Of a stretch of DNA of 33,025 bases, positions 18,965 to 31,381 are shown one piece after another. The notes beneath the pieces were generated by a model, which was not told the DNA's origin, searched no databases, and saw only the letters and a list, made by a program, of their open reading frames with translations. This DNA comes from Flavobacteriaceae bacterium (lineage in GTDB: Bacteria; Bacteroidota; Bacteroidia; Flavobacteriales; Flavobacteriaceae). The number at the start of each line of letters is the position of its first letter. Positions within the stretch are counted from its first letter, which is position 1. Location of the stretch: NCBI GenBank assembly GCA_018646605.1, contig JABGUL010000009.1, positions 1 to 33,025 of the forward strand, given 5' to 3'. The translations under genes and the position numbers were made by a program.

Positions 18965-20590
<1,626 letters not shown>

Positions 20591-21709
20591 TCAAAACCCT
20601 TTTAGAGCCGCTAATTGATCTACATGATAATTGTAGTCACCAAAAAGTTGCTGAGCCACTCGTGCCCGTTTCAGATAAAACCCAATATTTGCATCATCAG
20701 TCACTCCAATTCCACCGTGCATTTGAATAGCTTCATTAGTAACCATCTTAACTGTTTTTCCCAATTTAGCTTTTGCTAAGTGGGCATACCGTTTGGCATT
20801 AGCATCTTTTTCATCTATTGCCTGCAATGCTTTTAAAACTATTGATTTACATAATTCTATTTCCGAAAACATTATCGCAGCCCGATGCTGCAATGCCTGA
20901 TAAGTACCAATAATGACTCCAAACTGACTTCGTTCTTTCAAATACTGAATGGTAATTTCAAATGCTTCTTGACATATCCCTAATAATTCAGCAGCTACAC
21001 CAGAATAGGCAATGGTCATTAACTCGTCTAACATACGACTTCCATCCAATTGAATGTTAAGTTTATTTTCAGCACTTACTACTACTTTATCAAAAGTAAT
21101 ATCGGCGTAAGTACCTGAATCCATGAGTATATTTTTGGAAATATTTACCCCTTCTAAATCTGCTTTCACTAAAAATATACTAATCGCTTTATCTATTTCA
21201 GAAACAACAACAAAATGACTCGCTGTAGTGCCGTCTATTACCATTGTTTTTGTTCCGTCAATCACATAATTTTCCCCTTCTGGAACTGCCTTTGTTTGAA
21301 AAGAAGTTGTTTTATGGTATTTTCCTTCCTGCAGTGCCAAAGTTAGTTGAGTTGATCCCTCAATTAAACCGGGAAAAATTTTAGCTTTTAAAACCTTATT
21401 GTCTGATATTCTGAGTGCTGATGCTCCTAAAAGGATTGAGGATATAAGAGGAGATTTAGATAAATTTCTTCCCGTTTCTTCTAAAATTTGACCTAAACCT
21501 ACATGTCCAAAATCTAAACCATTATACCTTTCGGGTATGGTCAAGGCAGTCCAACCCAAAGAAGCTATCTCCCTCCATAAATTTGAGTCAAAAGTCATGT
21601 ACCCTTGATCACGAAGAGCTCTCATTTCATTTACAGGGGCCTTAGCTTTTAGGAGTTCTGCGGCAGAATCCTTGAGCATTTTTTGTTCTTCTGTTATAAT
21701 TAATGCCAT
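20591..21709 (-). CDS. Acyl-CoA dehydrogenase-fold subunit, probably non-catalytic
   Basis: A 372-residue member of the acyl-CoA dehydrogenase family with all three domains (LGWTALTIPERYNGLDFGHVG; beta domain around 120-215; C-terminal YLKERSQFGVIIGTYQALQHRAA and the FAD-binding MHGGIGVTDDANIGFYLKRA). Both usual base positions lack Glu: the isovaleryl-CoA dehydrogenase-type position aligns with Ala234 (TIAYSG), and the MCAD-type YEGT position reads FGDY. It follows the 394-residue dehydrogenase after 7 bp. Together they match the alpha-beta dehydrogenases known from mycobacterial sterol side-chain catabolism (FadE26-FadE27 type), where one subunit supplies the base. The complex is inferred. 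It is the last gene of the cluster. Confidence 0.88.
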   Translation of the reverse strand: MALIITEEQKMLKDSAAELLKAKAPVNEMRALRDQGYMTFDSNLWREIASLGWTALTIPERYNGLDFGHVGLGQILEETGRNLSKSPLISSILLGASALRISDNKVLKAKIFPGLIEGSTQLTLALQEGKYHKTTSFQTKAVPEGENYVIDGTKTMVIDGTTASHFVVVSEIDKAISIFLVKADLEGVNISKNILMDSGTYADITFDKVVVSAENKLNIQLDGSRMLDELMTIAYSGVAAELLGICQEAFEITIQYLKERSQFGVIIGTYQALQHRAAIMFSEIELCKSIVLKALQAIDEKDANAKRYAHLAKAKLGKTVKMVTNEAIQMHGGIGVTDDANIGFYLKRARVAQQLFGDYNYHVDQLAALKGF

Positions 21710-21716
21710 GTTTTTT

Positions 21717-22901
21717 TTATTTAGTGGGTAAGCCCAAAATGAGTTTAGAAATAATATTTAATTGGATTTCTGACGTTCCTCCTTCAATCGAATTCCCTTT
21801 TGAACGACAAAACTTTCGCGCTAAGTCGCCATCTGATTTTTCATTTTCCTCCCAAATTAAGGAGTCTGTTCCAGTTACAGCCATCAATAATTCCTGCCTT
21901 TTAATATTTAGCTCGGTTCCATAATACTTGAAAAACGAAGACAATGCCCCTGAATTATTCCCGGTTTTAGCTTCATCAGTAATGCGTTGAATAGTTAATT
22001 CAAAAATTTCTTCATCTATTTCAAAATCAGAAATTTGACTTCTTAACACACCATCAGAAATCAATCCTTTTGAATTTATTGGAAGATTTTCAATCGCAAC
22101 TTCATGAACTTCTTTCCGGATGTCTGTTTCTCCAATTCCTCCTATCATTTGTCGCTCATGGGTCAATAAGAATTTGGCAATATTCCAGCCTTCATTCAAT
22201 GTGCCTATTAAATTTTCTTTTGGCACTTTTACCCCATCAAAAAAAGTTTCGCAAAAAGGAGATTTTCCGCTAATTAGTTTTATTGGTCTGGTACTCACTC
22301 CCTCAGAAGCCATATCAATAAGAATAAAGCTAATCCCAGCATGTTTTGTTGCTTCGAAATCGGTACGTACTAAACAGAATATCCAATCCGATTTATCAGC
22401 ATAAGAAGTCCAAACTTTGGACCCAGTAATTTCATAATGATCCCCCTTTTCTAACGCTTTAGTTTGTAGACTAGCCAAATCACTCCCAGCATTAGGCTCA
22501 CTATACCCTTGACACCACCATATTTTACCTTCAACAATTTGAGGTAAGTAATGTAACTTTTGCTCTTCTGTAGCAAACTTCAAAAGTGCGGGACCCAACA
22601 TTGAAATCCCAAAACTATACAAAGGTTTTCTGCAGCCTAAACGAGTCATCTCTTGAGTTAAAATATTATTTTCTTCAGGGGTCAACCCCCCTCCACCATA
22701 TTTCTCCTCCCAATAAGGAACTATCCATCTCTTTTCAAGCATTTTTTCAAACCAAATCTTTTGGTCTTGAGTAGTAAAGATTGCATTCCGCCCTCCCCAA
22801 TAAACATCAAAAGGATCTTTAACAGGCTGTCGCATACTATGTGGACAGTTAGCTTCTAACCAAACTCTTGTTGCTGTTCTAAAGTCACTTAAATCATTCA
22901 T
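21717..22901 (-). CDS. Acyl-CoA dehydrogenase, probable catalytic subunit of a pair
   Basis: A 394-residue FAD enzyme that forms 2-enoyl-CoA. Motifs: WCQGYSEPNAGSDLASLQ (129-146), ITGSKVWTSYADKSDW (158-173) in the flavin/acyl site, and SIEGGTSEIQLNII near the C-terminus. Glu249 in LLTHERQ aligns with the isovaleryl-CoA dehydrogenase/FadE26-type base on the helix before the C-terminal domain, whereas the MCAD base position is Gly. The N-terminus (ATRVWLEANCPHSMR, then WFEKMLEKRWIVPYWEEKYGG) is of the FadE family acting on large or branched acyl-CoAs. It lies between the kinase (9 bp) and the Glu-less dehydrogenase (7 bp), so a heteromer is likely. Confidence 0.9.
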   Translation of the reverse strand: MNDLSDFRTATRVWLEANCPHSMRQPVKDPFDVYWGGRNAIFTTQDQKIWFEKMLEKRWIVPYWEEKYGGGGLTPEENNILTQEMTRLGCRKPLYSFGISMLGPALLKFATEEQKLHYLPQIVEGKIWWCQGYSEPNAGSDLASLQTKALEKGDHYEITGSKVWTSYADKSDWIFCLVRTDFEATKHAGISFILIDMASEGVSTRPIKLISGKSPFCETFFDGVKVPKENLIGTLNEGWNIAKFLLTHERQMIGGIGETDIRKEVHEVAIENLPINSKGLISDGVLRSQISDFEIDEEIFELTIQRITDEAKTGNNSGALSSFFKYYGTELNIKRQELLMAVTGTDSLIWEENEKSDGDLARKFCRSKGNSIEGGTSEIQLNIISKLILGLPTK

Positions 22902-22910
22902 CTATAAGTA

Positions 22911-23984
22911 TTAAAATAAGTTTTCAATTTTGTTTTTTTGAAATGCTTGTAACCCCATTTTTCCATAGTTAATAACTGCCTGGTCTAGATTTTTAAAACG
23001 AGCATCAGTAGTAAAACCATTATTGTATCTATAAAAAATTTGTTGGATAATCACTGTGATTTTAAACAATCCAAAAACGTAATAAAATGTAATATTGTCC
23101 ATGGGAAGATTTGTGATTTGAGCATATTTATGCACCAATTCACTACGTGATAAATTACCTTTTTCAATACTAATATTCATATTACTTTTCTTCATGAAAT
23201 CAGGATCTGACTCTTGAATCCAATAACCTAAGGTAGTCCCTAAATCCATTAATGGATCGCCAATTGTAGCCATTTCCCAGTCTAACACTCCTTTAATATT
23301 CAATTTATCGTCTTGAGAAAAGATGATATTGTCGTACTTAAAATCATTATGGATAAAAGCAGTGTGGTTTTTTTTAGGAATGTTTTTATTAAGCCAAGTG
23401 TATACCTTTTCTATCGTTTCTATATCGGCTGTTTTTGCATTGATGTAGCGCTTGGTCCAACCTTCCACCTGACGTTTGACATAACCGTCGGGACGTCCTA
23501 AATTCTCGAGTCCAACGGAATGATAATCTAGGGCATGAATTTCTGCAAAAGTAGTTACAAATTCATTGGACAACATCTGCATTTGAGCTGGTGCTGGAAG
23601 TTGTTCTTTGGGAGTATGCCCACGAAAAATCACTCCTTGTAATCGCTCCATAATGTAAAAAGGAGCATCAATAACAGATAAATCGTCACAAAACAAATAT
23701 GTCCTAGGAATCTTTGGATAAATAGGTTGGAGTCCAGAAAGTATTTTAAACTCTCTCCCCATATCATGCCCAGATTTTATTTTAGCGCCATGAGGGGGAC
23801 GTCTAAGTACAAACTCTTGATTGTCCCAACGTAATAAATAAGTTAAATTAGAATATCCTGCTGGGAATTGAAGCACCTCAAAATTAGAATTAGGTAATTC
23901 CATTTTACTTCTTAGATATGTCTCCAAAGAAGAAACATCCAAGGTTTGTCCTGTTCTTATTTGTCCTGCCTTATCACGCTTCAT
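22911..23984 (-). CDS. APH-fold phosphotransferase, ACAD10/11 N-domain type
   Basis: A 357-residue aminoglycoside-phosphotransferase-like kinase. The Brenner motif HNDFKYDN (His212, Asp214 as base, Asn219) and the metal-binding LDWEMATIGDPLMDL (Asp235) are intact. The N-lobe has FPAGYSNLTYLLRW and the nucleotide-site sequence FVLRRPPHG-x10-GREFKIL. This is the subgroup forming the kinase half of mammalian ACAD10/ACAD11 and including LvaA, which phosphorylates 4-hydroxyacyl-CoA. It sits between two acyl-CoA dehydrogenase genes, which argues for an acyl-CoA substrate rather than an antibiotic. It is 155 bp downstream of the ACAD10/11-type dehydrogenase and 9 bp upstream of the next. The exact substrate is unknown. 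Confidence 0.88.
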   Translation of the reverse strand: MKRDKAGQIRTGQTLDVSSLETYLRSKMELPNSNFEVLQFPAGYSNLTYLLRWDNQEFVLRRPPHGAKIKSGHDMGREFKILSGLQPIYPKIPRTYLFCDDLSVIDAPFYIMERLQGVIFRGHTPKEQLPAPAQMQMLSNEFVTTFAEIHALDYHSVGLENLGRPDGYVKRQVEGWTKRYINAKTADIETIEKVYTWLNKNIPKKNHTAFIHNDFKYDNIIFSQDDKLNIKGVLDWEMATIGDPLMDLGTTLGYWIQESDPDFMKKSNMNISIEKGNLSRSELVHKYAQITNLPMDNITFYYVFGLFKITVIIQQIFYRYNNGFTTDARFKNLDQAVINYGKMGLQAFQKNKIENLF

Positions 23985-24139
23985 TACTGCTTTAATTATT
24001 ATTTATAATTATATGATAATATGATTTTTATATTTGTTAACCTCAATTTTTTATTTAAATAAAAATAATCGTTATTTAGTTTTAATTGATCCCCTTATTA
24101 TATCCATTTTATATCCCTGAGAAAAAAATATCAATTCTC

Positions 24140-25321
24140 TTACTTGTTAGTGTATTTTTTTAAAATACTTCTTGCCAAACGACTTTTATGAACCTCATCT
24201 GCGCCGTCATAAATTCGAGCAGCTCTTTCATGACGATAATATAACGACAATATGGTGTCATCTGTTACCCCTTTTGCACCATGTACTTGAATTGCGCAAT
24301 CCACCACTTTCTGAAGTACTTGAGCACAATAAAATTTAATGATAGAAATCTCAGAGCGTGTTTCATAAGCACCTTGTACATCAATCTTATGTGCAGCATC
24401 CTGCACAAGTAATCGAGCTGCATTAATTTCTGCTCTACATTCAGAAATCCAGTTTTGAATGGTTTGCTTTTCACCTAACATAACCCCTTCTGCTATTTCA
24501 CGAGAGACCGCTCTCTGGCACATTAAATCAAAAGCGCGTTCACACATTCCAATCCAACGCATACAATGATGAATACGCCCAGGGCCTAATCGCTTTTGAG
24601 CAATGGTAAATCCCTCACCGTCACCTCCAAGGACATTAGATAACGGAACTTTAACTTCATGAAATTTGATTTCTGCATGACTTTCCCAGCCGCTGCTAGA
24701 ATGTCCCATAATAGATACATTTCTAACAAATTCTACTCCTTCAGTGCTCGTTGGAACGATCACCTGACTTGCTTTTTTATGTGGATTTTTTCCTTCAGGG
24801 TCGGTCACAAGCATAACTATGGCAAAAGTTGCACCATCAAAACCGGACGTAAACCATTTATGCCCATTGATTACATAGTTGCCGTTTTCTTTTGTGGCTA
24901 TAGTTCCCATTTTAACTGGATTAGATCCGGCATGGTCGGGTTCAGTCATTGCGAAACAACTTCTTATTTCACCTTTTAAAAGAGGGTATAAATAAGTTTC
25001 TTTTTGATGATCAGTTCCAAACTCAATAAGAATTTCCATGTTCCCTGCATCTGGCGCTTGACAATTTAAGCAATAATGCCCGTAGGGACTTGCGCCTAAG
25101 ATTTCACTTACTTCTCCATGCTGGGCATTTGTTAATCCCAATCCACCATAGGCCGTAGGAATCTGAGGAAGCCAAAGTCCTTCTGACTTAGCTTTATTTC
25201 TAAGTTCCTTTAGCTTAGGTAATTTTTCCTCCCATTCAACATTAAGAATCCAAGGTTCAAGAGTAAGTAATTCCTCTTTTACAAAGATTTTCGTCTTCTT
25301 TTTTATCTCTTCAAAATCCAT
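24140..25321 (-). CDS. Acyl-CoA dehydrogenase of the ACAD10/11 type
   Basis: A 393-residue acyl-CoA dehydrogenase-fold flavoprotein. Motifs: CFAMTEPDHAGSNPVKMGT, VINGHKWFTSGFDGATFAIV, and a FAD-binding C-terminus VHGAKGVTDDTILSLYYRHERA. The distinctive end is RIYDGADEVHKSRLAR (Asp372, Glu376, His378), matching the xDGPDEVH signature of ACAD10/ACAD11 rather than the YEGT of classical dehydrogenases. In that family the enzyme acts on 4-phosphorylated acyl-CoA and eliminates phosphate. The kinase that would make such a substrate is the next gene downstream. It starts 9 bp after the crotonase gene. A plain dehydrogenase role remains possible. Confidence 0.9.
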   Translation of the reverse strand: MDFEEIKKKTKIFVKEELLTLEPWILNVEWEEKLPKLKELRNKAKSEGLWLPQIPTAYGGLGLTNAQHGEVSEILGASPYGHYCLNCQAPDAGNMEILIEFGTDHQKETYLYPLLKGEIRSCFAMTEPDHAGSNPVKMGTIATKENGNYVINGHKWFTSGFDGATFAIVMLVTDPEGKNPHKKASQVIVPTSTEGVEFVRNVSIMGHSSSGWESHAEIKFHEVKVPLSNVLGGDGEGFTIAQKRLGPGRIHHCMRWIGMCERAFDLMCQRAVSREIAEGVMLGEKQTIQNWISECRAEINAARLLVQDAAHKIDVQGAYETRSEISIIKFYCAQVLQKVVDCAIQVHGAKGVTDDTILSLYYRHERAARIYDGADEVHKSRLARSILKKYTNK

Positions 25322-25330
25322 TTTAAAATA

Positions 25331-26113
25331 TTATTTACCTAAAAAGTTGGGTTTTCTTTTTTCTAAAAAAGCAGTTACCCCTTCTTTTAAATCATGACTT
25401 TTAAATGCAGCAACTTGTTTTCTTGCCTCAAAAGCAATAGCCTCATTTAAACTATGGTTTATTGCATAAAACATGTCTTCCTTTGCTATTCCTATGGCAA
25501 GTGTTGCTCCTTTAGCAAGTTCTTCTGCCCATTGTTTTGCATTATTTAAAAGCTCTTCTTGAGGAACGATCCTATTGGTAAGCCCCAAGGCCAGACATTC
25601 TGTTCCACTAACTTTTTTACCACTTGTAGCAATTTCTAAGGCTCGACTATAGCCTACTTGTCTAGCAAGTAGCCAACTAGCTCCTCCATCTGGACCTAAG
25701 CCAATGTTTACAAAGGCATATAAAATGCCACTTTCAGCACTCATTACTCTAAAATCACATGCCAAAGCAAAAGCAGCGCCTACTCCTGCAGCAGTACCAT
25801 TTATTGCTCCTATAATTGGTTTTTTTAAAGTAAAAAATTGGTTCATTAAAGGTTGGTATTGATCAATAATATATTGACTTCTTTCTTCTGCTGTGGCATT
25901 ATCACTAAACACAGACATATCAGCTCCTGCACAGAAACCTCTGCCTGAACCTGTTAGTACAACAGCTCTAATTGAATCATCGTTTTCGCATTTAGTCAAA
26001 GCAGATGAAATTCCATCAACTAAATCTTGATTGACCGCATTGTAACGATCGGGTCGGTTTAAGGTGATGGTAGCAACTCCTTTATTTGCTTCAAATAATA
26101 CTGCGTTTTCCAT
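25331..26113 (-). CDS. Crotonase-fold enoyl-CoA isomerase/hydratase family protein
   Basis: A 260-residue crotonase-fold enzyme. CoA-binding and oxyanion-hole segments are present (GRGFCAGADMSVF at 58-70; GTAAGVGAAFALACDFRV at 106-123). Neither hydratase glutamate is kept: the position of rat crotonase Glu144 is Ala114 and that of Glu164 is Val135. Instead there is Asp142 in NIGLGPDGGASWLL, as in PaaG-like isomerases. An isomerase moving a double bond (3-enoyl to 2-enoyl-CoA) is thus more likely than a hydratase; the MaoC protein 6 bp upstream can supply hydration. It precedes the ACAD10/11-type gene by 9 bp. Confidence 0.88.
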   Translation of the reverse strand: MENAVLFEANKGVATITLNRPDRYNAVNQDLVDGISSALTKCENDDSIRAVVLTGSGRGFCAGADMSVFSDNATAEERSQYIIDQYQPLMNQFFTLKKPIIGAINGTAAGVGAAFALACDFRVMSAESGILYAFVNIGLGPDGGASWLLARQVGYSRALEIATSGKKVSGTECLALGLTNRIVPQEELLNNAKQWAEELAKGATLAIGIAKEDMFYAINHSLNEAIAFEARKQVAAFKSHDLKEGVTAFLEKRKPNFLGK

Positions 26114-26119
26114 AATTGA

Positions 26120-26605
26120 TTAAGTATAAGCTAGTGCTAAAAATTCAGCAACACAGGCCGGTTTTTCGTGGCCCTCTAATTCTATCGTGACATTTAATTT
26201 GTATTTAGCTCCTTTTGGGATCATTTCAAAATCTGCTAAAATTACACGCCCTCTGAAATTTGTTCCTGTAGGGGTCGCATTTGGAAAGCGGACTTTGTCT
26301 AATCCGTAATTGATTGCCATTGAAACGTGTCCAATCTCATATGCATCGTACATTATTTTAGAGCACATGGAGAGCATTAAAAATCCGTGAGCGATGGGTT
26401 TCTGATATGGGGATTCTTTGGCGCAACGTTCTGCATCTAGATGAATCCATTGTTCATCCTCAGTAGCTTTAGCAAACGTATTAATTCGTTCTTGATCCAT
26501 TTTTGTCCAGGGAGTTAATCCCAACTCTTTACCCACTGAACCCTGCATATCAGAAATATTTTTAAAAATACTTCTATAGGATTCTTGTATTTTTTGTGTT
26601 GCCAT
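26120..26605 (-). CDS. MaoC-like (R)-specific enoyl-CoA hydratase
   Basis: A 161-residue single-hotdog protein of the MaoC/hydratase-2 family, which adds water to 2-enoyl-CoA to give (R)-3-hydroxyacyl-CoA. The catalytic signature is complete: ATEDEQWIHLD with Asp50 and His55 (D-x4-H), and PIAHGFLMLSM (70-80). The N-terminal GLTPWTKMDQERINTFAKAT is typical. It lies 12 bp after the second SDR gene and 6 bp before the crotonase gene. It probably acts on the enoyl-CoA made by the dehydrogenases or by phosphate elimination. Confidence 0.92.
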   Translation of the reverse strand: MATQKIQESYRSIFKNISDMQGSVGKELGLTPWTKMDQERINTFAKATEDEQWIHLDAERCAKESPYQKPIAHGFLMLSMCSKIMYDAYEIGHVSMAINYGLDKVRFPNATPTGTNFRGRVILADFEMIPKGAKYKLNVTIELEGHEKPACVAEFLALAYT

Positions 26606-26617
26606 ATTTCTATTTTT

Positions 26618-27391
26618 TTAAACTATCATGTGACCTCCGTCAACCGTATAAATACCACCTGTAGAATAACTTCCAGCATCTGAAGCAAGATAGACTGCCA
26701 AACCTGTAAGTTCTTGAGGTTGTGCCATTCTTCCAGCGGGGAGCTCTTTTACCACTTGTTTCATTATAGTTTCATTTTGCCAGAGTGCTGAACTAAATTT
26801 GGTTTGTATTAAGCCCGGGCAGATTGCATTAGAACGAATTCCATATTTACCCCATTCTTTAGCCTGAACTTGGGTCAACATAATTAATGCTGCTTTTGTT
26901 ACTCCATAAAGGCCTAGACCAAAGCTTGGTTTTAATCCTTCAACGGAAGCAATATTGATAATAGAACTACCTTTTGAATCCTTTAAATATGGGAAACATA
27001 AATTACTCAAATCAAAGGCCGCTTTAAGATTTACATTCATCATCTTATCATAAATCTCTTCTGACATTGATTCAAGGCCCTTAAAAACAGGATTAATAGC
27101 TGCATTATTAATAAGTATGTCTATACCGCCATAGGTTTCAATTGTTTTGTTAACTAAAATTTTTCGTTGTTCTGAATCTCCTACATGACATGCCTGTGCC
27201 ATTACCGTATGGCCTTTTGCCCTGAGGTTTTTTGCAACTTCATCTACAGAGTCTTGAGATCTACTGCTGACCACTACTTTAGCCCCATATTCAGCCAATA
27301 CTTCTGCTAAGGCTAAACCAATACCCTTGCTGGAACCTGTTATCAAGGCCACTTTCCCATCGAGTTCAAAAAGATGTTTGGTTGTTTTCAT
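26618..27391 (-). CDS. Short-chain dehydrogenase/reductase, DHRS4-like
   Basis: A 257-residue classical SDR. The nucleotide motif TGSSKGIG spans 18-25, with SRS after beta-2 suggesting NADP preference. NNAA is at 95-98 and the catalytic Ser149, Tyr162 and Lys166 are in ASVEGLKPSFGLGLYGVTK. The C-terminal IRSNAICPGLIQTKFSSALW is of the DHRS4 and 3-hydroxyacyl/keto-reductase group. It could oxidise a 3-hydroxyacyl-CoA or interconvert 4-oxo and 4-hydroxy acyl-CoA, as LvaD does in the levulinate pathway; the sequence does not decide. It is 3 bp after the first SDR. Confidence 0.9.
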   Translation of the reverse strand: MKTTKHLFELDGKVALITGSSKGIGLALAEVLAEYGAKVVVSSRSQDSVDEVAKNLRAKGHTVMAQACHVGDSEQRKILVNKTIETYGGIDILINNAAINPVFKGLESMSEEIYDKMMNVNLKAAFDLSNLCFPYLKDSKGSSIINIASVEGLKPSFGLGLYGVTKAALIMLTQVQAKEWGKYGIRSNAICPGLIQTKFSSALWQNETIMKQVVKELPAGRMAQPQELTGLAVYLASDAGSYSTGGIYTVDGGHMIV

Positions 27392-27394
27392 TTT

Positions 27395-28138
27395 TTACAT
27401 TGGCATTGATCCACCGTTAGCATGGAGGGTAATTCCTGAAATAAATCCGGCCTCTTTGGAGGCTAAATAAAGGTATGCAAATCCCATATCTTCTACCGTA
27501 CCTATTCGCCCTACTGGTATTTGGGCAACTCCAGCTTTTATGACTTCATCCGGCATAGAATCCGTCATATTTGTTTTTATAAAACCAGGAGCAACAGCAT
27601 TTACAGTTACTCCAAAACGCCCTGTTTCTTTGCATAAAGCACGAGTAAAACCAGCAACTGCTGCCTTAGTAGCAGCGTAATTGACCTGACCAAAAGCTCC
27701 TGCAAATCCATTAATTGATGAGGCAGAAACAATACGTCCATAACCTGCTTCTTTCATATGAGGCAATACTGCTTTTGCAGTTGTGTAAAGTGAATTTAAA
27801 TTAACATTGATGACAGTATCCCATTCGGATTGTTCCATTTTCATAAAAGAACGATCACGAATCACACCCGCATTATTAATTAAAATATCGATTTTATGAT
27901 ACTTGGCTATAATCTCTGAAACTGCAATTTCAACAGAATCTTTGGAGGTTACATCTACTTTTTGAAAAAAGATTGATCCTCCTTGCTTTGAAATTCTTTC
28001 TGCTGTGTCAACACCTACATCTAAAACATCCCAAAGTGCGACCGTCGCTCCTGCTTTACAAAAAACCTCACAAATACCCTCACCAATTCCTCGAGCCCCT
28101 CCCGTAATAATGGCTAACTGTCCTTCTAAATTTATCAT
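27395..28138 (-). CDS. Short-chain dehydrogenase/reductase, FabG/PhaB-like
   Basis: A 247-residue classical SDR. The cofactor motif is TGGARGIG (12-19), followed by Asp37 in ALWDVLD at the end of beta-2, which favours NAD. NNAG is at 88-91, and the catalytic Ser141, Tyr154 and Lys158 are in SSINGFAGAFGQVNYAATK. The C-terminus has NAVAPGFIKTNMT. It is most like 3-oxoacyl reductases and 3-hydroxyacyl-CoA dehydrogenases of the FabG type. It is the first gene of the eight-gene minus-strand cluster, so the promoter should lie in 28139-28315, where an inverted repeat at 28211-28224 is the only notable element. Confidence 0.9.
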   Translation of the reverse strand: MINLEGQLAIITGGARGIGEGICEVFCKAGATVALWDVLDVGVDTAERISKQGGSIFFQKVDVTSKDSVEIAVSEIIAKYHKIDILINNAGVIRDRSFMKMEQSEWDTVINVNLNSLYTTAKAVLPHMKEAGYGRIVSASSINGFAGAFGQVNYAATKAAVAGFTRALCKETGRFGVTVNAVAPGFIKTNMTDSMPDEVIKAGVAQIPVGRIGTVEDMGFAYLYLASKEAGFISGITLHANGGSMPM

Positions 28139-28357: not shown

Positions 28358-28391
28358 AAAAAAACGGGTAATTGTTACGCAACTACCCGTT
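28358..28391 (-). terminator. First terminator of the 990-residue receptor gene
   Basis: On the minus strand AACGGGTA (28391-28384) pairs with TACCCGTT (28370-28363), with an inner TTG/CAA pairing and a short loop, followed by seven T (28364-28358, the first two shared with the stem). It is 18 bp past the receptor stop codon at 28409 and separates the receptor transcript from the catabolic cluster. Confidence 0.9.
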
Positions 28392-28408: not shown

Positions 28409-31381
28409 TTAAAAATTGTATGTTGCTTTTGCAAGAACTCTTCTTCCAATTACGGGAAGTCCTGGCATGGCTCTATATTTTTGATTGAAAATATTATTAC
28501 CAGATAAATCAAGCGCAAATTTTTCGCTAAACTTATAGCCAATATTCATATCAACTAAATTCTTTTCGTCAGCAATACCGTTGATAAATAATCCTTGTTC
28601 AACAGTAAAGGCAGCATCATGTTGAAATGAAATTCTCCCTCTAAAGCCCATATCAGGTGAAAAGGAAAATCCAGTTCTGTATTTAAATTTTGGTGAATTC
28701 AAATAAGAAGTGAAAGGTAAATCGTCATCACCAACTGCCCAATCGGTTTGACTAACCCATGAGGAATTTCCAAACCAAGTCCATTCGTCATTTATAAAAT
28801 ATTCCATCGATAAGTCCATTCCATAATGACTTCTTGTAGCGTCATTAAATCTTCTGTAACCAGAGGCAGCGTGAACCATTCCATCTTGTGGAGCCCCGTC
28901 TGCCTCAAGAGCACCTATAATAGGATATAATTGAGATAAGGCAGAGGCATTAAGCCCTTGTCCAGCTGCTTGAAACCCTAATCCATACCCTCCAGCAATT
29001 GCCGCTACTGTTCCGGCTGCTTGAGCTGCAGCTGAAGGCACCGCTGCAGGAAGACCAAAAGCTGCTGCTGTAGCCGCATCCAATCCTGTTATAGGAAGTC
29101 CTGCTGCAGCATATTGAGCAGATATTGCTCCAAGCACAGTTGCATTGATCGTTGGATCTGCAATCATATCCGCCACAACACTATTTGCTAAATCACCTGG
29201 CAGATTTTCACTTCCACCGAAAACATAAGATGGTGCTAGTTGCGTAAACCTTGTAAATCCTGTTCTTTCATAGGTATATAAATCATATGAAACAGCAAGT
29301 TTATCACCTATAATACCTTGGTATCCAAGCTCAAAGCTATTTAAAGTACCTATTTCCCCTTTACCGGTATCATCATAGTTTGTCATTGGTGATCCTGTAA
29401 ATAAATCAAAAGGTATTAGAGATCCAGTAGCACCTGATGGTCCTGCATAAGTTTCAAAGAAAGAATTAAAAATAGGTAAAAGAGGCGCTGCCGCTGGATT
29501 AGCTGCTGCTACCCCTGCTGATGCACCTGCTAAAGTTTGAGCTATTCCACTCGCTCCCAAAGCACCATAGAAATAAGCGAGTGGGATTTGAGTAGATCCT
29601 TCTGGAAGATTTGGCCATCCAGGTACACTCATGTCTATTGAAGCGTTTGAGAAAGTTTGAGCATTAGCCTGTCCTGAAAGCCATATGTCGAATACTCCTG
29701 GTGCTGGAGAGTTTACTGGGAAATCAATAAACATCTCTAATGCTGAAGGAATAAATGCCGCTTGGTTGTAAGAAGCTCTAAATGTATGCTTCGGGCTTGG
29801 CTTATATACCAACGCTACTCTGGGAGCAAAAGAACTATCGTCTAAAAAACCATAGCTGTCATATCGCCCTGCAAAAGTTAAGTCCAATTTAGACCCCAAC
29901 TCTAATGTACCTTGTAAATAAAGACCAGATATTTGATAATCATCATTTAGTTCATTTCTTCCCCAAATTGTATTTTCAGAATCTTGTCGGTTGTTACGCG
30001 TATCAAAACCAACAGTAAAATCAGAATTTAAAAGTGAAGGGATTTGAAAGTTATATTGAACTTGAGCTTCTAAAAGGTTTCTTTTTGCAATTTGATTTAA
30101 ACCTGTTCCGTACAAAAATGTAGGATTGTCATCTCCCCCTCCATCGTTATCTACATAATAGATTTGAGCGAAAAGACCTCCAGTTTGGATTCTAGCTTGC
30201 GTCCAAAATTCTGTTCCGTCTGTTCTTCCATAACCTTGGGAATTTGCAAAAAATCCATCACCAGTATTCGCTCCTGCTGAAAGAAACATACTTGTTTTAT
30301 CAGAGGGTCTAAATTCTAGATGTGCATTAACGGTTGAGTTTCTGTAATTTGTTTTAAGTCCTTTTCCGTCAGGATATAATTCACTTGTTGACAAAAGAAG
30401 GTCCCCTTGTTGTGTTGCATCAGCAACTCCATTGGAAATAACAGGTTTTCTAATTTCGTCTTTAAATGACGCGATATTTGCCTGATCTCTTGGATCATTT
30501 GGATCGAAGTTAAAATCGTTTCCTTTTAAATATTTTGCATTTATTTTATATCCAAAAGTTTTCTTTTCATTAGACCATGCATGTCTAATTGCTGCACCCG
30601 TCGTGGCTAGTTCTCCAGCAATTAATTCTACGGTAGTTCCTGGATAGTCAATAGGATTTTTTGTTAAGAAGTGAACAATTCCTGAAGAAACCCCAGGCCC
30701 ATACAATGCTGAGTTCGCTCCTCTTACAACTTCTATTCTTGCAATATCAATATTTGATAATCCACTTTGATAACTCAAAAAAGAAGAAGAAGTTGGATTA
30801 AATAAATTTCTATAATCAAGCATTGGGAACGTTGAAGTTCCAAAAACTCCAGAGCCTGCTCTCATTTCAATATTTATAACATTAGCCGATTGTTGCTGTA
30901 ACTGAACACCCGGAATGTCAACTAAAGATCTAATTGGATCTGTCACATTTGAGTTATTTTCCAAATCTCTCGCGGTGATAATAGAAACAGACTGAGGTGA
31001 TTCCGATATTTTTTGCGGTCTTCTAGAGGCAGAAATGATTATTTCATCTAAGTTTTGACCTGCTTCAAGGGAAATGCTTATTTGTTGATCTGCACTTGTA
31101 ACCTCCAAAATAGTAGAGTTGAATCCGATAGAAGATACCTCAATCGAAAAAGGAAGCTCTGTGGAAGAGGTTAAAACGAAGTTCCCATCAAAATCTGTAG
31201 CCGCTCCTGTTCGTGAACCAACGACAATAATGTTTGCTCCTGGAATTGATTCTCCGGTCTCTGAATCAGTAATTGATCCTGAAATAGTGGTTTGAGCCAT
31301 TGCAAAATTTCCTATTAAAAGCAATAGTGAGAACATTGCTATTTTAATTAAATTGTTTGTTTTCATTTGTTTGATTTTCAT
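28409..31381 (-). CDS. TonB-dependent receptor with carboxypeptidase-like domain and Ala-rich insertions
   Basis: A 990-residue outer-membrane active transporter. A signal peptide ends NFAMAQ (about residue 30), then a carboxypeptidase-like regulatory domain (about 31-110, TTISGSITDSETGESIPGAN), a plug (about 115-250, DIARIEVVRGANSALYGPGVSSGIVHFLT) and a 22-strand barrel ending RRVLAKATYNF. Two long Ala/Gly-rich segments stand out at about 604-640 and 750-815, likely outside loops. No SusD gene is adjacent, so glycan uptake is less likely. Its position upstream of the acyl-CoA cluster suggests a lipid-like ligand, which is inference. The start is ambiguous between 31381 and 31366, because the initiation region is duplicated; mature protein is unaffected. 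Confidence 0.9.
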   Translation of the reverse strand: MKIKQMKTNNLIKIAMFSLLLLIGNFAMAQTTISGSITDSETGESIPGANIIVVGSRTGAATDFDGNFVLTSSTELPFSIEVSSIGFNSTILEVTSADQQISISLEAGQNLDEIIISASRRPQKISESPQSVSIITARDLENNSNVTDPIRSLVDIPGVQLQQQSANVINIEMRAGSGVFGTSTFPMLDYRNLFNPTSSSFLSYQSGLSNIDIARIEVVRGANSALYGPGVSSGIVHFLTKNPIDYPGTTVELIAGELATTGAAIRHAWSNEKKTFGYKINAKYLKGNDFNFDPNDPRDQANIASFKDEIRKPVISNGVADATQQGDLLLSTSELYPDGKGLKTNYRNSTVNAHLEFRPSDKTSMFLSAGANTGDGFFANSQGYGRTDGTEFWTQARIQTGGLFAQIYYVDNDGGGDDNPTFLYGTGLNQIAKRNLLEAQVQYNFQIPSLLNSDFTVGFDTRNNRQDSENTIWGRNELNDDYQISGLYLQGTLELGSKLDLTFAGRYDSYGFLDDSSFAPRVALVYKPSPKHTFRASYNQAAFIPSALEMFIDFPVNSPAPGVFDIWLSGQANAQTFSNASIDMSVPGWPNLPEGSTQIPLAYFYGALGASGIAQTLAGASAGVAAANPAAAPLLPIFNSFFETYAGPSGATGSLIPFDLFTGSPMTNYDDTGKGEIGTLNSFELGYQGIIGDKLAVSYDLYTYERTGFTRFTQLAPSYVFGGSENLPGDLANSVVADMIADPTINATVLGAISAQYAAAGLPITGLDAATAAAFGLPAAVPSAAAQAAGTVAAIAGGYGLGFQAAGQGLNASALSQLYPIIGALEADGAPQDGMVHAASGYRRFNDATRSHYGMDLSMEYFINDEWTWFGNSSWVSQTDWAVGDDDLPFTSYLNSPKFKYRTGFSFSPDMGFRGRISFQHDAAFTVEQGLFINGIADEKNLVDMNIGYKFSEKFALDLSGNNIFNQKYRAMPGLPVIGRRVLAKATYNF

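Follow-up and report, generated by a model that had tools for sequence, protein, structure and literature searches.

A kinase and flavoprotein pair in a flavobacterial operon, likely to be a two-protein form of the ACAD10/11 reaction

Introduction

Is the reaction of mammalian ACAD10 and ACAD11, which combine a kinase part with an acyl-CoA dehydrogenase (ACAD) part, also encoded in flavobacteria? This question is raised by two neighbouring minus-strand genes on contig JABGUL010000009.1 of a Flavobacteriaceae bacterium (GenBank assembly GCA_018646605.1). The first (22911..23984) encodes a 357-amino-acid-residue kinase of the APH fold, recognized by its Pfam family, PDB matches and invariant residues. 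The second (24140..25321) encodes a 393-amino-acid-residue protein of the ACAD10/11-type dehydrogenase fold, recognized by a PDB match, its residues, trees and co-occurrence. Both open reading frames are intact, and the original prediction, made from the sequence alone, had placed them correctly. We propose that the first is a 4-hydroxyacyl-CoA kinase of the LvaA or ACAD11-N type and the second a 4-phosphoacyl-CoA lyase. The window analysed here is the entire 33-kb contig (33,025 nucleotides); the source assembly (G000) is 1.98 Mb in size and 98.03% complete.

The reaction itself is already known, and so is its two-gene form, LvaA and LvaC, in bacteria. Bacterial chemistry of the ACAD10/11 type was demonstrated, in the literature found, with proteobacterial proteins of the LvaA/LvaC kind. 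The original prediction had stressed that kinase and dehydrogenase are split in this bacterium. The genes are separate, but this is not special, since LvaA/LvaC and the tested Burkholderia proteins are separate too. Loci and genomes are cited by L and G numbers.

The kinase

The kinase belongs to the Pfam family APH (5e-46), and its motifs HNDFKYDN and LDWE are both intact, as originally predicted. Among solved structures it matched 9o56 (5e-87), the ACAD11 kinase domain (8v3v, 6e-46), 3dxp (2e-43) and 9fsg (2e-07), the last being a 25-hydroxy steroid kinase (25-HSK) according to the structure-search listing. It is 36% identical to mouse ACAD11. Models of APH resistance proteins gave weak matches, far below their cut-offs.

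The catalytic residues are D214, N219 and D235, and the CoA-site residues are R77 and R171. In alignment D214 corresponds to ACAD11 D220, N219 to N225, R171 to R176, and R77 to the Arg next to the alphaC Glu. Each of the 32 kinases aligned keeps the catalytic Asp and Asn, LDWE and both CoA-site Arg residues; their records are assigned to Bacteroidota, Acidobacteriota, Deinococcota, Chloroflexota, KSB1 and other groups. The AlphaFold2 model of the kinase was confident (mean pLDDT 91.5), and a Foldseek search with this model returned 3dxp first and 25-HSK (9fsg) second.

A grouping of the kinase with unrelated APH proteins, named by the original prediction as an outcome that would refute it, is opposed by the search scores, in which 9o56, ACAD11 and 3dxp are far ahead of other APH proteins. 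The kinase tree, which contained no rows of LvaA or unrelated APH proteins, included one mammalian reference and 9o56, both with long branches, and served only to show which kinases are neighbours.

The dehydrogenase and its diagnostic residues

The dehydrogenase contains the N, M and C domains of Pfam Acyl-CoA_dh. The predicted C-terminal signature DGADEVH was found, as YDGADEVH. ACAD11 was the best match among solved structures (2wbi, 4e-83; 8v3u, 1e-82; also 8v3v), followed by 4hr3 (3e-75); the next match was 4n5f at 5e-38.

Residues R244, R249, H252 and R255 lie in the segment RLGPGRIHHCMR, and the catalytic D372 lies in YDGADEVH, where ordinary ACADs have Glu. R244, H252, R255 and D372 correspond to mouse ACAD11 R626, H634, R637 (the HCMR region) and D753. 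In the published model of ACAD11, R626, H634 and R637 hold the phosphate beside the catalytic Asp753; all four contact the substrate, and the three are absent from conventional ACADs (PMC12440821). Ala or Leu at these positions was most disruptive to ACAD activity, and R637K impaired it partly (PMC12440821). We found R626, H634 and R637 kept in 79 of 79 ACAD11-like rows, references and duplicates included, and Asp753 in 78 of 79, the missing row ending early. The set of three residues plus Asp was present in none of the five ordinary ACADs aligned alongside, two of which are the other dehydrogenases of this operon.

Co-occurrence of the two genes

We sampled 395 genomes from the whole phylum and applied a threshold of E <= 1e-60 to both genes; the kinase was found in 27 genomes and the dehydrogenase in 27. 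These were the same 27 genomes, and none held one gene alone. The hypergeometric probability of this result is about 10^-41.7 if the genomes are taken as independent; kinship makes the true figure less extreme. The finding that the same 27 genomes hold both genes indicates that the pair is one functional system and that the kinase is genetically coupled to the ACAD11-type lyase. The two genes lay within 1 kb of each other in 17 of the 27 genomes. In the other 10 they were on different contigs (four genomes), 101 kb apart (one), 7.8 kb apart (one) or 1.8-2.1 kb apart (four, from one genus), so close linkage alone is insufficient to account for the co-occurrence.

A set of 120 near genomes, the source genome included, gave a similar picture. 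The kinase was found in 15 (E <= 1e-10) and the dehydrogenase in 16 (E <= 1e-60), and the partner was present in 15 of 15 kinase genomes versus 1 of the 105 others. That single genome (G021; L153, G021:C17) carries a clade-A dehydrogenase gene (see below) without a kinase. The neighbours on this contig look gammaproteobacterial by eye, and the contig is perhaps contamination.

Kinase loci were also compared directly. There were 84 of them, copies of the same genomes being left out, and many contigs were cut. An ACAD11-type gene lay within 2.5 kb of the kinase in 61 of the 77 loci with at least 1.3 kb of upstream sequence (54 on the same strand, 7 on the opposite strand).

Two groups of partner lyases

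In a tree of 53 rows, thinned from the ACAD11-like alignment, mammalian ACAD11, 4hr3 and bacterial proteins with an 'ADGPDE' motif were on one side of a branch with support of 98/100. We call these 15 rows clade A; it contains a proven enzyme, ACAD11. The window dehydrogenase and 35 others with the motif 'IYDG[A/P]DE' were outside clade A, here and in an earlier quick tree, and are called group B. Sixteen positions are conserved (>=94%) yet different between clade A and group B. Group-B dehydrogenases are also present in Acidobacteriota, Deinococcota, Chloroflexota and KSB1. We do not treat group B as a proven clade, because the distant outgroup roots inside it and it stood on one side of a branch in 10% of 200 bootstrap trees. 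LvaC was not among the rows; its published identities of 62% to ACAD10 and 56% to ACAD11 (PMC11342911) suggest that it should fall in clade A.

Lyases of clade A and group B were never found together in 54 distinct kinase genomes. Among 29 kinase genomes (the near genomes and those reached through loci), 15 had group B, 13 had clade A, one had none (G131) and none had both. The 27 kinase genomes of the phylum sample, in which the best four candidates per genome were scored, had group B in 20, clade A in 7 and both in none; G000 and G069 are common to the two sets. Genes were assigned by tree or motif where a row was available and otherwise by identity to the window protein (43-45% versus >=52%).

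Kinases with a clade-A neighbour (L032-L035, L108, L113) nest, in the kinase tree, within Bacteroidota kinases otherwise paired with group B, and the enclosing forks have support of 91-93. It looks from the sequences as if the kinase stayed while its partner lyase was exchanged. This apparent exchange is indirect evidence that group B does what clade A does.

In L113, L108, L033, L035 and L069 a protein of about 130 amino acid residues follows the kinase. It had no Pfam match in L113, the one tested, and could be a counterpart of the 12-kDa LvaB.

Organization of the operon

The pair belongs to an eight-gene operon on the minus strand, running from 28138 to 20591 in the order SDR1, SDR2, MaoC, crotonase, dehydrogenase, kinase, dehydrogenase alpha and dehydrogenase beta, SDR standing for short-chain dehydrogenase/reductase. 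The intergenic gaps are 3-12 bp, except for 155 bp before the kinase (23985..24139), a place occupied by the AbfD gene in some relatives. SDR1 (27395..28138), identified by family searches and locus comparison, is FabG-like. SDR2 (26618..27391), identified by family searches, is possibly a 4-oxoacyl-CoA reductase (the role of LvaD) or a 3-hydroxyacyl-CoA dehydrogenase. They are followed by a MaoC-type enoyl-CoA hydratase (26120..26605; Pfam), whose closest solved relative is Rv0130, and by a crotonase of the enoyl-CoA hydratase/isomerase kind (25331..26113; Pfam, NCBIfam). The two SDRs, the hydratase and the crotonase listed by the original prediction are all real, 3-12 bp apart. It had not included the 155-bp gap, the two dehydrogenases directly downstream (20591-22901) or the TonB-dependent receptor upstream.

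These two dehydrogenases, identified by NCBIfam and solved-structure matches, are an alpha-type subunit (21717..22901; PimC / Tcur3483-like) and a beta-type subunit (20591..21709; PimD / Tcur3481-like). Their best NCBIfam matches were pimeloyl-CoA dehydrogenase models, far below cut-off. The nearest solved relatives were Tcur3483/Tcur3481, and 4x28 also scored high for the alpha subunit; we take all of these to be steroid enzymes. Their nearness leaves room for a bulky or branched acid as the substrate of the operon.

The TonB-dependent receptor gene (28409..31381, minus strand; Pfam) lies 270 bp upstream of the operon and occurs there also in loci of the same genus and in Arcticimaribacter-type loci. 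A terminator-like hairpin, read by eye, is located between the two (28358-28390), so the receptor gene is probably a transcript of its own. One regular expression for a Bacteroidota-type promoter consensus had no match anywhere in the window. A thiolase is encoded at 1725-2999. The atpD gene (18965-20539), named from its translation, begins 51 bp downstream of the operon.

The cluster is located upstream of atpD both in this genus and, with a different gene order, in the MED-G11-like group, as at a conserved landing place. AtpD is beside the cluster in L022, L024, L026-L031, L058, L083, L086, L095, L102 and others. L095, on a contig labelled Alphaproteobacteria, has a MED-G11-type cluster, is very close to Cryomorphaceae MED-G11 in trees, and encodes an AtpD 85% identical to that of the window; it is probably a misassigned contig.

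AbfD and other neighbours in related loci

AbfD (4-hydroxybutyryl-CoA dehydratase / vinylacetyl-CoA isomerase; PDB 1u8v, 6vjr) acts on 4-hydroxyacyl-CoA, as proposed for the window pair, but is a protein unrelated to either member. Its chemistry is of the radical Fe-S/FAD (iron-sulphur and flavin adenine dinucleotide) type and needs no ATP. The AbfD gene abuts the kinase gene in 9 of the 84 loci (L022, L030, L048, L050, L058, L059, L062, L075, L083), and in 7 of these 9 (all but L048 and L075) the ACAD11-type gene is just before it. The L022 protein matched 6vjr at 3e-229 and 1u8v at 5e-169. It keeps in alignment C99, C103, H292 and C299, which we take to be the Fe-S ligands of 1u8v. Where AbfD stands beside the pair, as in some relatives, a single operon holds two unrelated chemistries for 4-hydroxyacyl-CoA.

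L157 comes from the Saprospiraceae genome that also contains L075. It shows SDR1, a group-B dehydrogenase and AbfD at a contig end, so the order of lyase then AbfD reaches beyond the family. Of the near genomes 4 of 120 contain AbfD. In G006 and G029 it lies within the cluster and in G055 elsewhere; G015 has a 75-amino-acid piece of it at a contig end behind TonB-SDR1-SDR2-MaoC, and no kinase was found in that genome. In the phylum sample AbfD was found in 2 of 395 genomes, both kinase genomes, and was unlinked. AbfD was not found in the window or the source assembly, and no remnant of it was detected in the 155-bp gap. We therefore do not claim this gap as a proven deletion scar; loss here and gain elsewhere both stand.

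SDR2 was the commonest further neighbour among those counted, being within 5.5 kb of the kinase in 56 of the 84 loci. The numbers of loci with other neighbours were 40 for MaoC (fused MaoC-crotonase excluded), 26 for the alpha dehydrogenase and 23 for a CoA ligase. MaoC-crotonase fusions occurred in Arenibacter loci, L066 (Maribacter Ww89), L051 and L053. A histidine phosphatase of about 239 amino acid residues, assigned to PF00300 in each of three cases tested, is repeatedly encoded close to the kinase or its partner. It is seen in several phyla: in KSB1 (L063, L074), Saprospiraceae/Lewinella (L064, L065, L071), two flavobacteria (L032, L155) and one acidobacterium (L084). The enzyme could serve to remove 4-phosphoacyl side products. 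The lvaA homologue of Pseudomonas citronellolis also has a histidine phosphatase gene next to it (PMC6692424).

In L049, L050, L051, L052, L055, L059, L060 and L062 a strictosidine-synthase/SMP-30-like protein of about 352 amino acid residues (PF03088/PF08450 in L049, the one tested) and two extra SDRs are encoded between the TonB gene and SDR1. An amidohydrolase then follows in most (Pfam in L049). The strictosidine-synthase/SMP-30-like protein could be a lactonase feeding 4-hydroxy acids into the pathway.

Candidates for CoA activation

The window encodes no CoA ligase, as the original prediction had said. Before the TonB gene, an acyl-CoA ligase (about 560 amino acid residues where complete) is present in G004, G008 and G024 of the same genus and in L049, L052, L055 and L060; in the MED-G11-like group an acyl-CoA ligase is divergent to SDR2. 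The only AMP-binding proteins found in the source assembly were an acetate-CoA ligase (TIGR02188, 951 bits, above cut-off) and a MenE-like protein, which was below cut-off and was placed by its men-like neighbours, read by eye. A search at E <= 1e-20 detected proteins like the ligase of the locus in 32 of 37 same-genus relatives and none in the source assembly, which may therefore have a gap here. Two CoA-transferase pairs (PF01144; G000:C37 and G000:C4) are candidates for the route by which CoA is put onto the acid in this organism.

Discussion

We consider it likely that the pair encodes a bacterial two-protein form of the ACAD10/11 reaction, a 4-hydroxyacyl-CoA kinase and a 4-phosphoacyl-CoA lyase. 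The gene identities, the diagnostic residues and the pairing across genomes are the parts that the sequences support. The ACAD10/11-type chemistry named by the original prediction agrees with the diagnostic residues, the best solved relatives, the co-occurrence and neighbours like those of the lva cluster (an SDR, and in some relatives a histidine phosphatase).

The reaction and its mechanism are modelled on ACAD10/11, the kinase and elimination steps being proposed by homology to tested enzymes (PMC12440821; PMC11342911). The 4-hydroxyacyl-CoA, of a chain length that we can at most presume, would come from a lactone, a 4-hydroxy acid or a 4-oxo acid, perhaps taken up by the TonB receptor and then loaded with CoA. 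The kinase would transfer phosphate from ATP to the 4-hydroxyl. In the flavoprotein Asp372 would take the alpha proton, hydride would pass to FAD and back, and the 4-phosphate, held by Arg244, His252 and Arg255, would be expelled to give 2-enoyl-CoA with no net oxidation. The MaoC or crotonase hydratase, an SDR, the alpha/beta dehydrogenase and a thiolase (such as that in the window) would complete beta-oxidation. One SDR may serve for 4-oxo group reduction or 3-hydroxyl oxidation, and could replace LvaD.

Several findings weigh against this reading. Contrary to what the original prediction implied, the window dehydrogenase does not fall within the clade of ACAD11, and it is 42% identical to mouse ACAD11 versus 56-57% for two flavobacterial clade-A proteins. 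Near-fixed differences between the groups include Leu638 to Trp256 beside the HCMR motif and Ala752 to Tyr371 beside the catalytic Asp. From these three features the substrate of the window dehydrogenase may differ from that of ACAD11. On the kinase side, the closest solved relative, 9o56, carries only the name 'Aminoglycoside phosphotransferase', no function being found by literature search. Neither 9o56 nor ACAD11 was among the 50 Foldseek matches listed with the kinase model as query, in which a steroid kinase was second. The paper numbers the Arg next to the alphaC Glu as R86 (PMC12440821), versus 84 by the offset that fits the other three residues. The ACAD11-type gene was not within 2.5 kb in 16 of the 77 kinase loci with enough upstream sequence, and 1 of the 14 genomes reached through loci (G131) was without such a gene at E <= 1e-40. 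Finally, a fatty acyl-CoA ligase was not found in the source assembly, which makes the original description of a nearly complete route too strong.

Among other explanations, the one that survives best keeps the ACAD10/11 chemistry and makes the substrate 4-hydroxybutyryl-CoA, derived from 4-hydroxybutyrate, polyhydroxyalkanoate or gamma-butyrolactone, with the pair as an ATP-driven stand-in for AbfD. Some relatives carry the gene of AbfD, an enzyme whose known substrate is 4-hydroxybutyryl-CoA, between those of the pair. AbfD was not found here, and both AbfD genomes of the phylum sample (2 of 2, unlinked) are kinase genomes. Seven loci, however, keep AbfD together with the pair (L022, L030, L050, L058, L059, L062, L083), which is unexpected for pure replacement, and the alpha/beta dehydrogenases and the TonB receptor suggest a larger acid. 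We regard this substrate as a minority possibility, roughly one chance among several.

A kinase acting on another hydroxyl, such as a tertiary or steroid side-chain alcohol, with the flavoprotein eliminating the phosphate and the operon serving a bulky isoprenoid or steroid-like acid, seems improbable. 25-HSK resembles the window kinase in being an APH-type kinase that phosphorylates an alcohol for elimination, and it was second in the Foldseek search. The presumed steroid enzymes nearest to the alpha/beta dehydrogenases fit the same idea. According to PMC8449060, the lyase partner of 25-HSK is not known, nor is any candidate gene for it nearby. 25-HSK differs, however, in its distant sequence and its steroid alcohol substrate. 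On sequence scores the window kinase is far nearer to ACAD11 (6e-46) than to 9fsg (2e-07), and a steroid alcohol kinase was set aside as first choice for this reason. The residues for holding a phosphate at carbon 4 of an acyl-CoA are retained in the partner flavoprotein, AbfD in the operon of some relatives points to the same carbon, and the best NCBIfam models of the alpha/beta subunits are for pimeloyl-CoA dehydrogenase, though far below cut-off. It is very improbable that the flavoprotein is an ordinary beta-oxidation acyl-CoA dehydrogenase and that the kinase, as an APH protein, has some unrelated role in resistance or with a small molecule, and this explanation was rejected: both proteins do come from very large superfamilies and the operon also has plain beta-oxidation enzymes, but the flavoprotein has Asp for the catalytic Glu and the R/H/R set, ordinary ACADs score far below ACAD11, resistance models match the kinase weakly, and the two genes occur in exactly the same 27 of the 395 genomes, in 10 of which they do not lie within 1 kb of each other.

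Compared with known systems, the proposed kinase and lyase resemble LvaA and LvaC of the Pseudomonas putida levulinate operon, which also has an SDR (LvaD) and a CoA ligase (LvaE): separate kinase and ACAD-type lyase genes lie near an SDR gene in both. Some relatives of the window locus also share a CoA ligase with the lva operon, and some share the histidine phosphatase of the P. citronellolis lva cluster (PMC6692424). The window locus adds the alpha/beta dehydrogenases, MaoC, the crotonase and the TonB receptor, and its dehydrogenase is outside the ACAD11 clade, where LvaC, itself not in the trees, is expected by its published identities. Mammalian ACAD10/ACAD11 share the kinase and ACAD parts with matching catalytic and phosphate-holding residues, but as a fused chain and not as two genes; the identities given above are to ACAD11 only. 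Word searches of the open-licence literature found no report of a group-B lyase, of its exclusion of clade A or of AbfD between lyase and kinase. They also found no paper joining 4-hydroxybutyryl-CoA dehydratase with ACAD11 or 4-hydroxybutyryl-CoA with LvaA, nor relevantly ACAD10 with flavobacteria.

We give about even chances to a broader proposal, that one operon is a platform for removing the 4-hydroxyl from acyl-CoA in marine flavobacteria and their kin. ATP-driven phosphorylation and elimination and radical AbfD dehydration would be slotted into it, group-B dehydrogenases would be a candidate 4-phosphoacyl-CoA lyase family, and clade-A and group-B lyases would be exchanged beside a conserved kinase. 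If this is true, a separate and widespread flavoprotein branch does the same elimination, the pair with either branch being present in 27 of 395 genomes of the phylum. Operons with both the pair and AbfD are a natural place to ask why an ATP-consuming route is kept beside an ATP-free one. The proposal would also account for a possible use of 4-hydroxy acids or lactones by ocean flavobacteria with small genomes.

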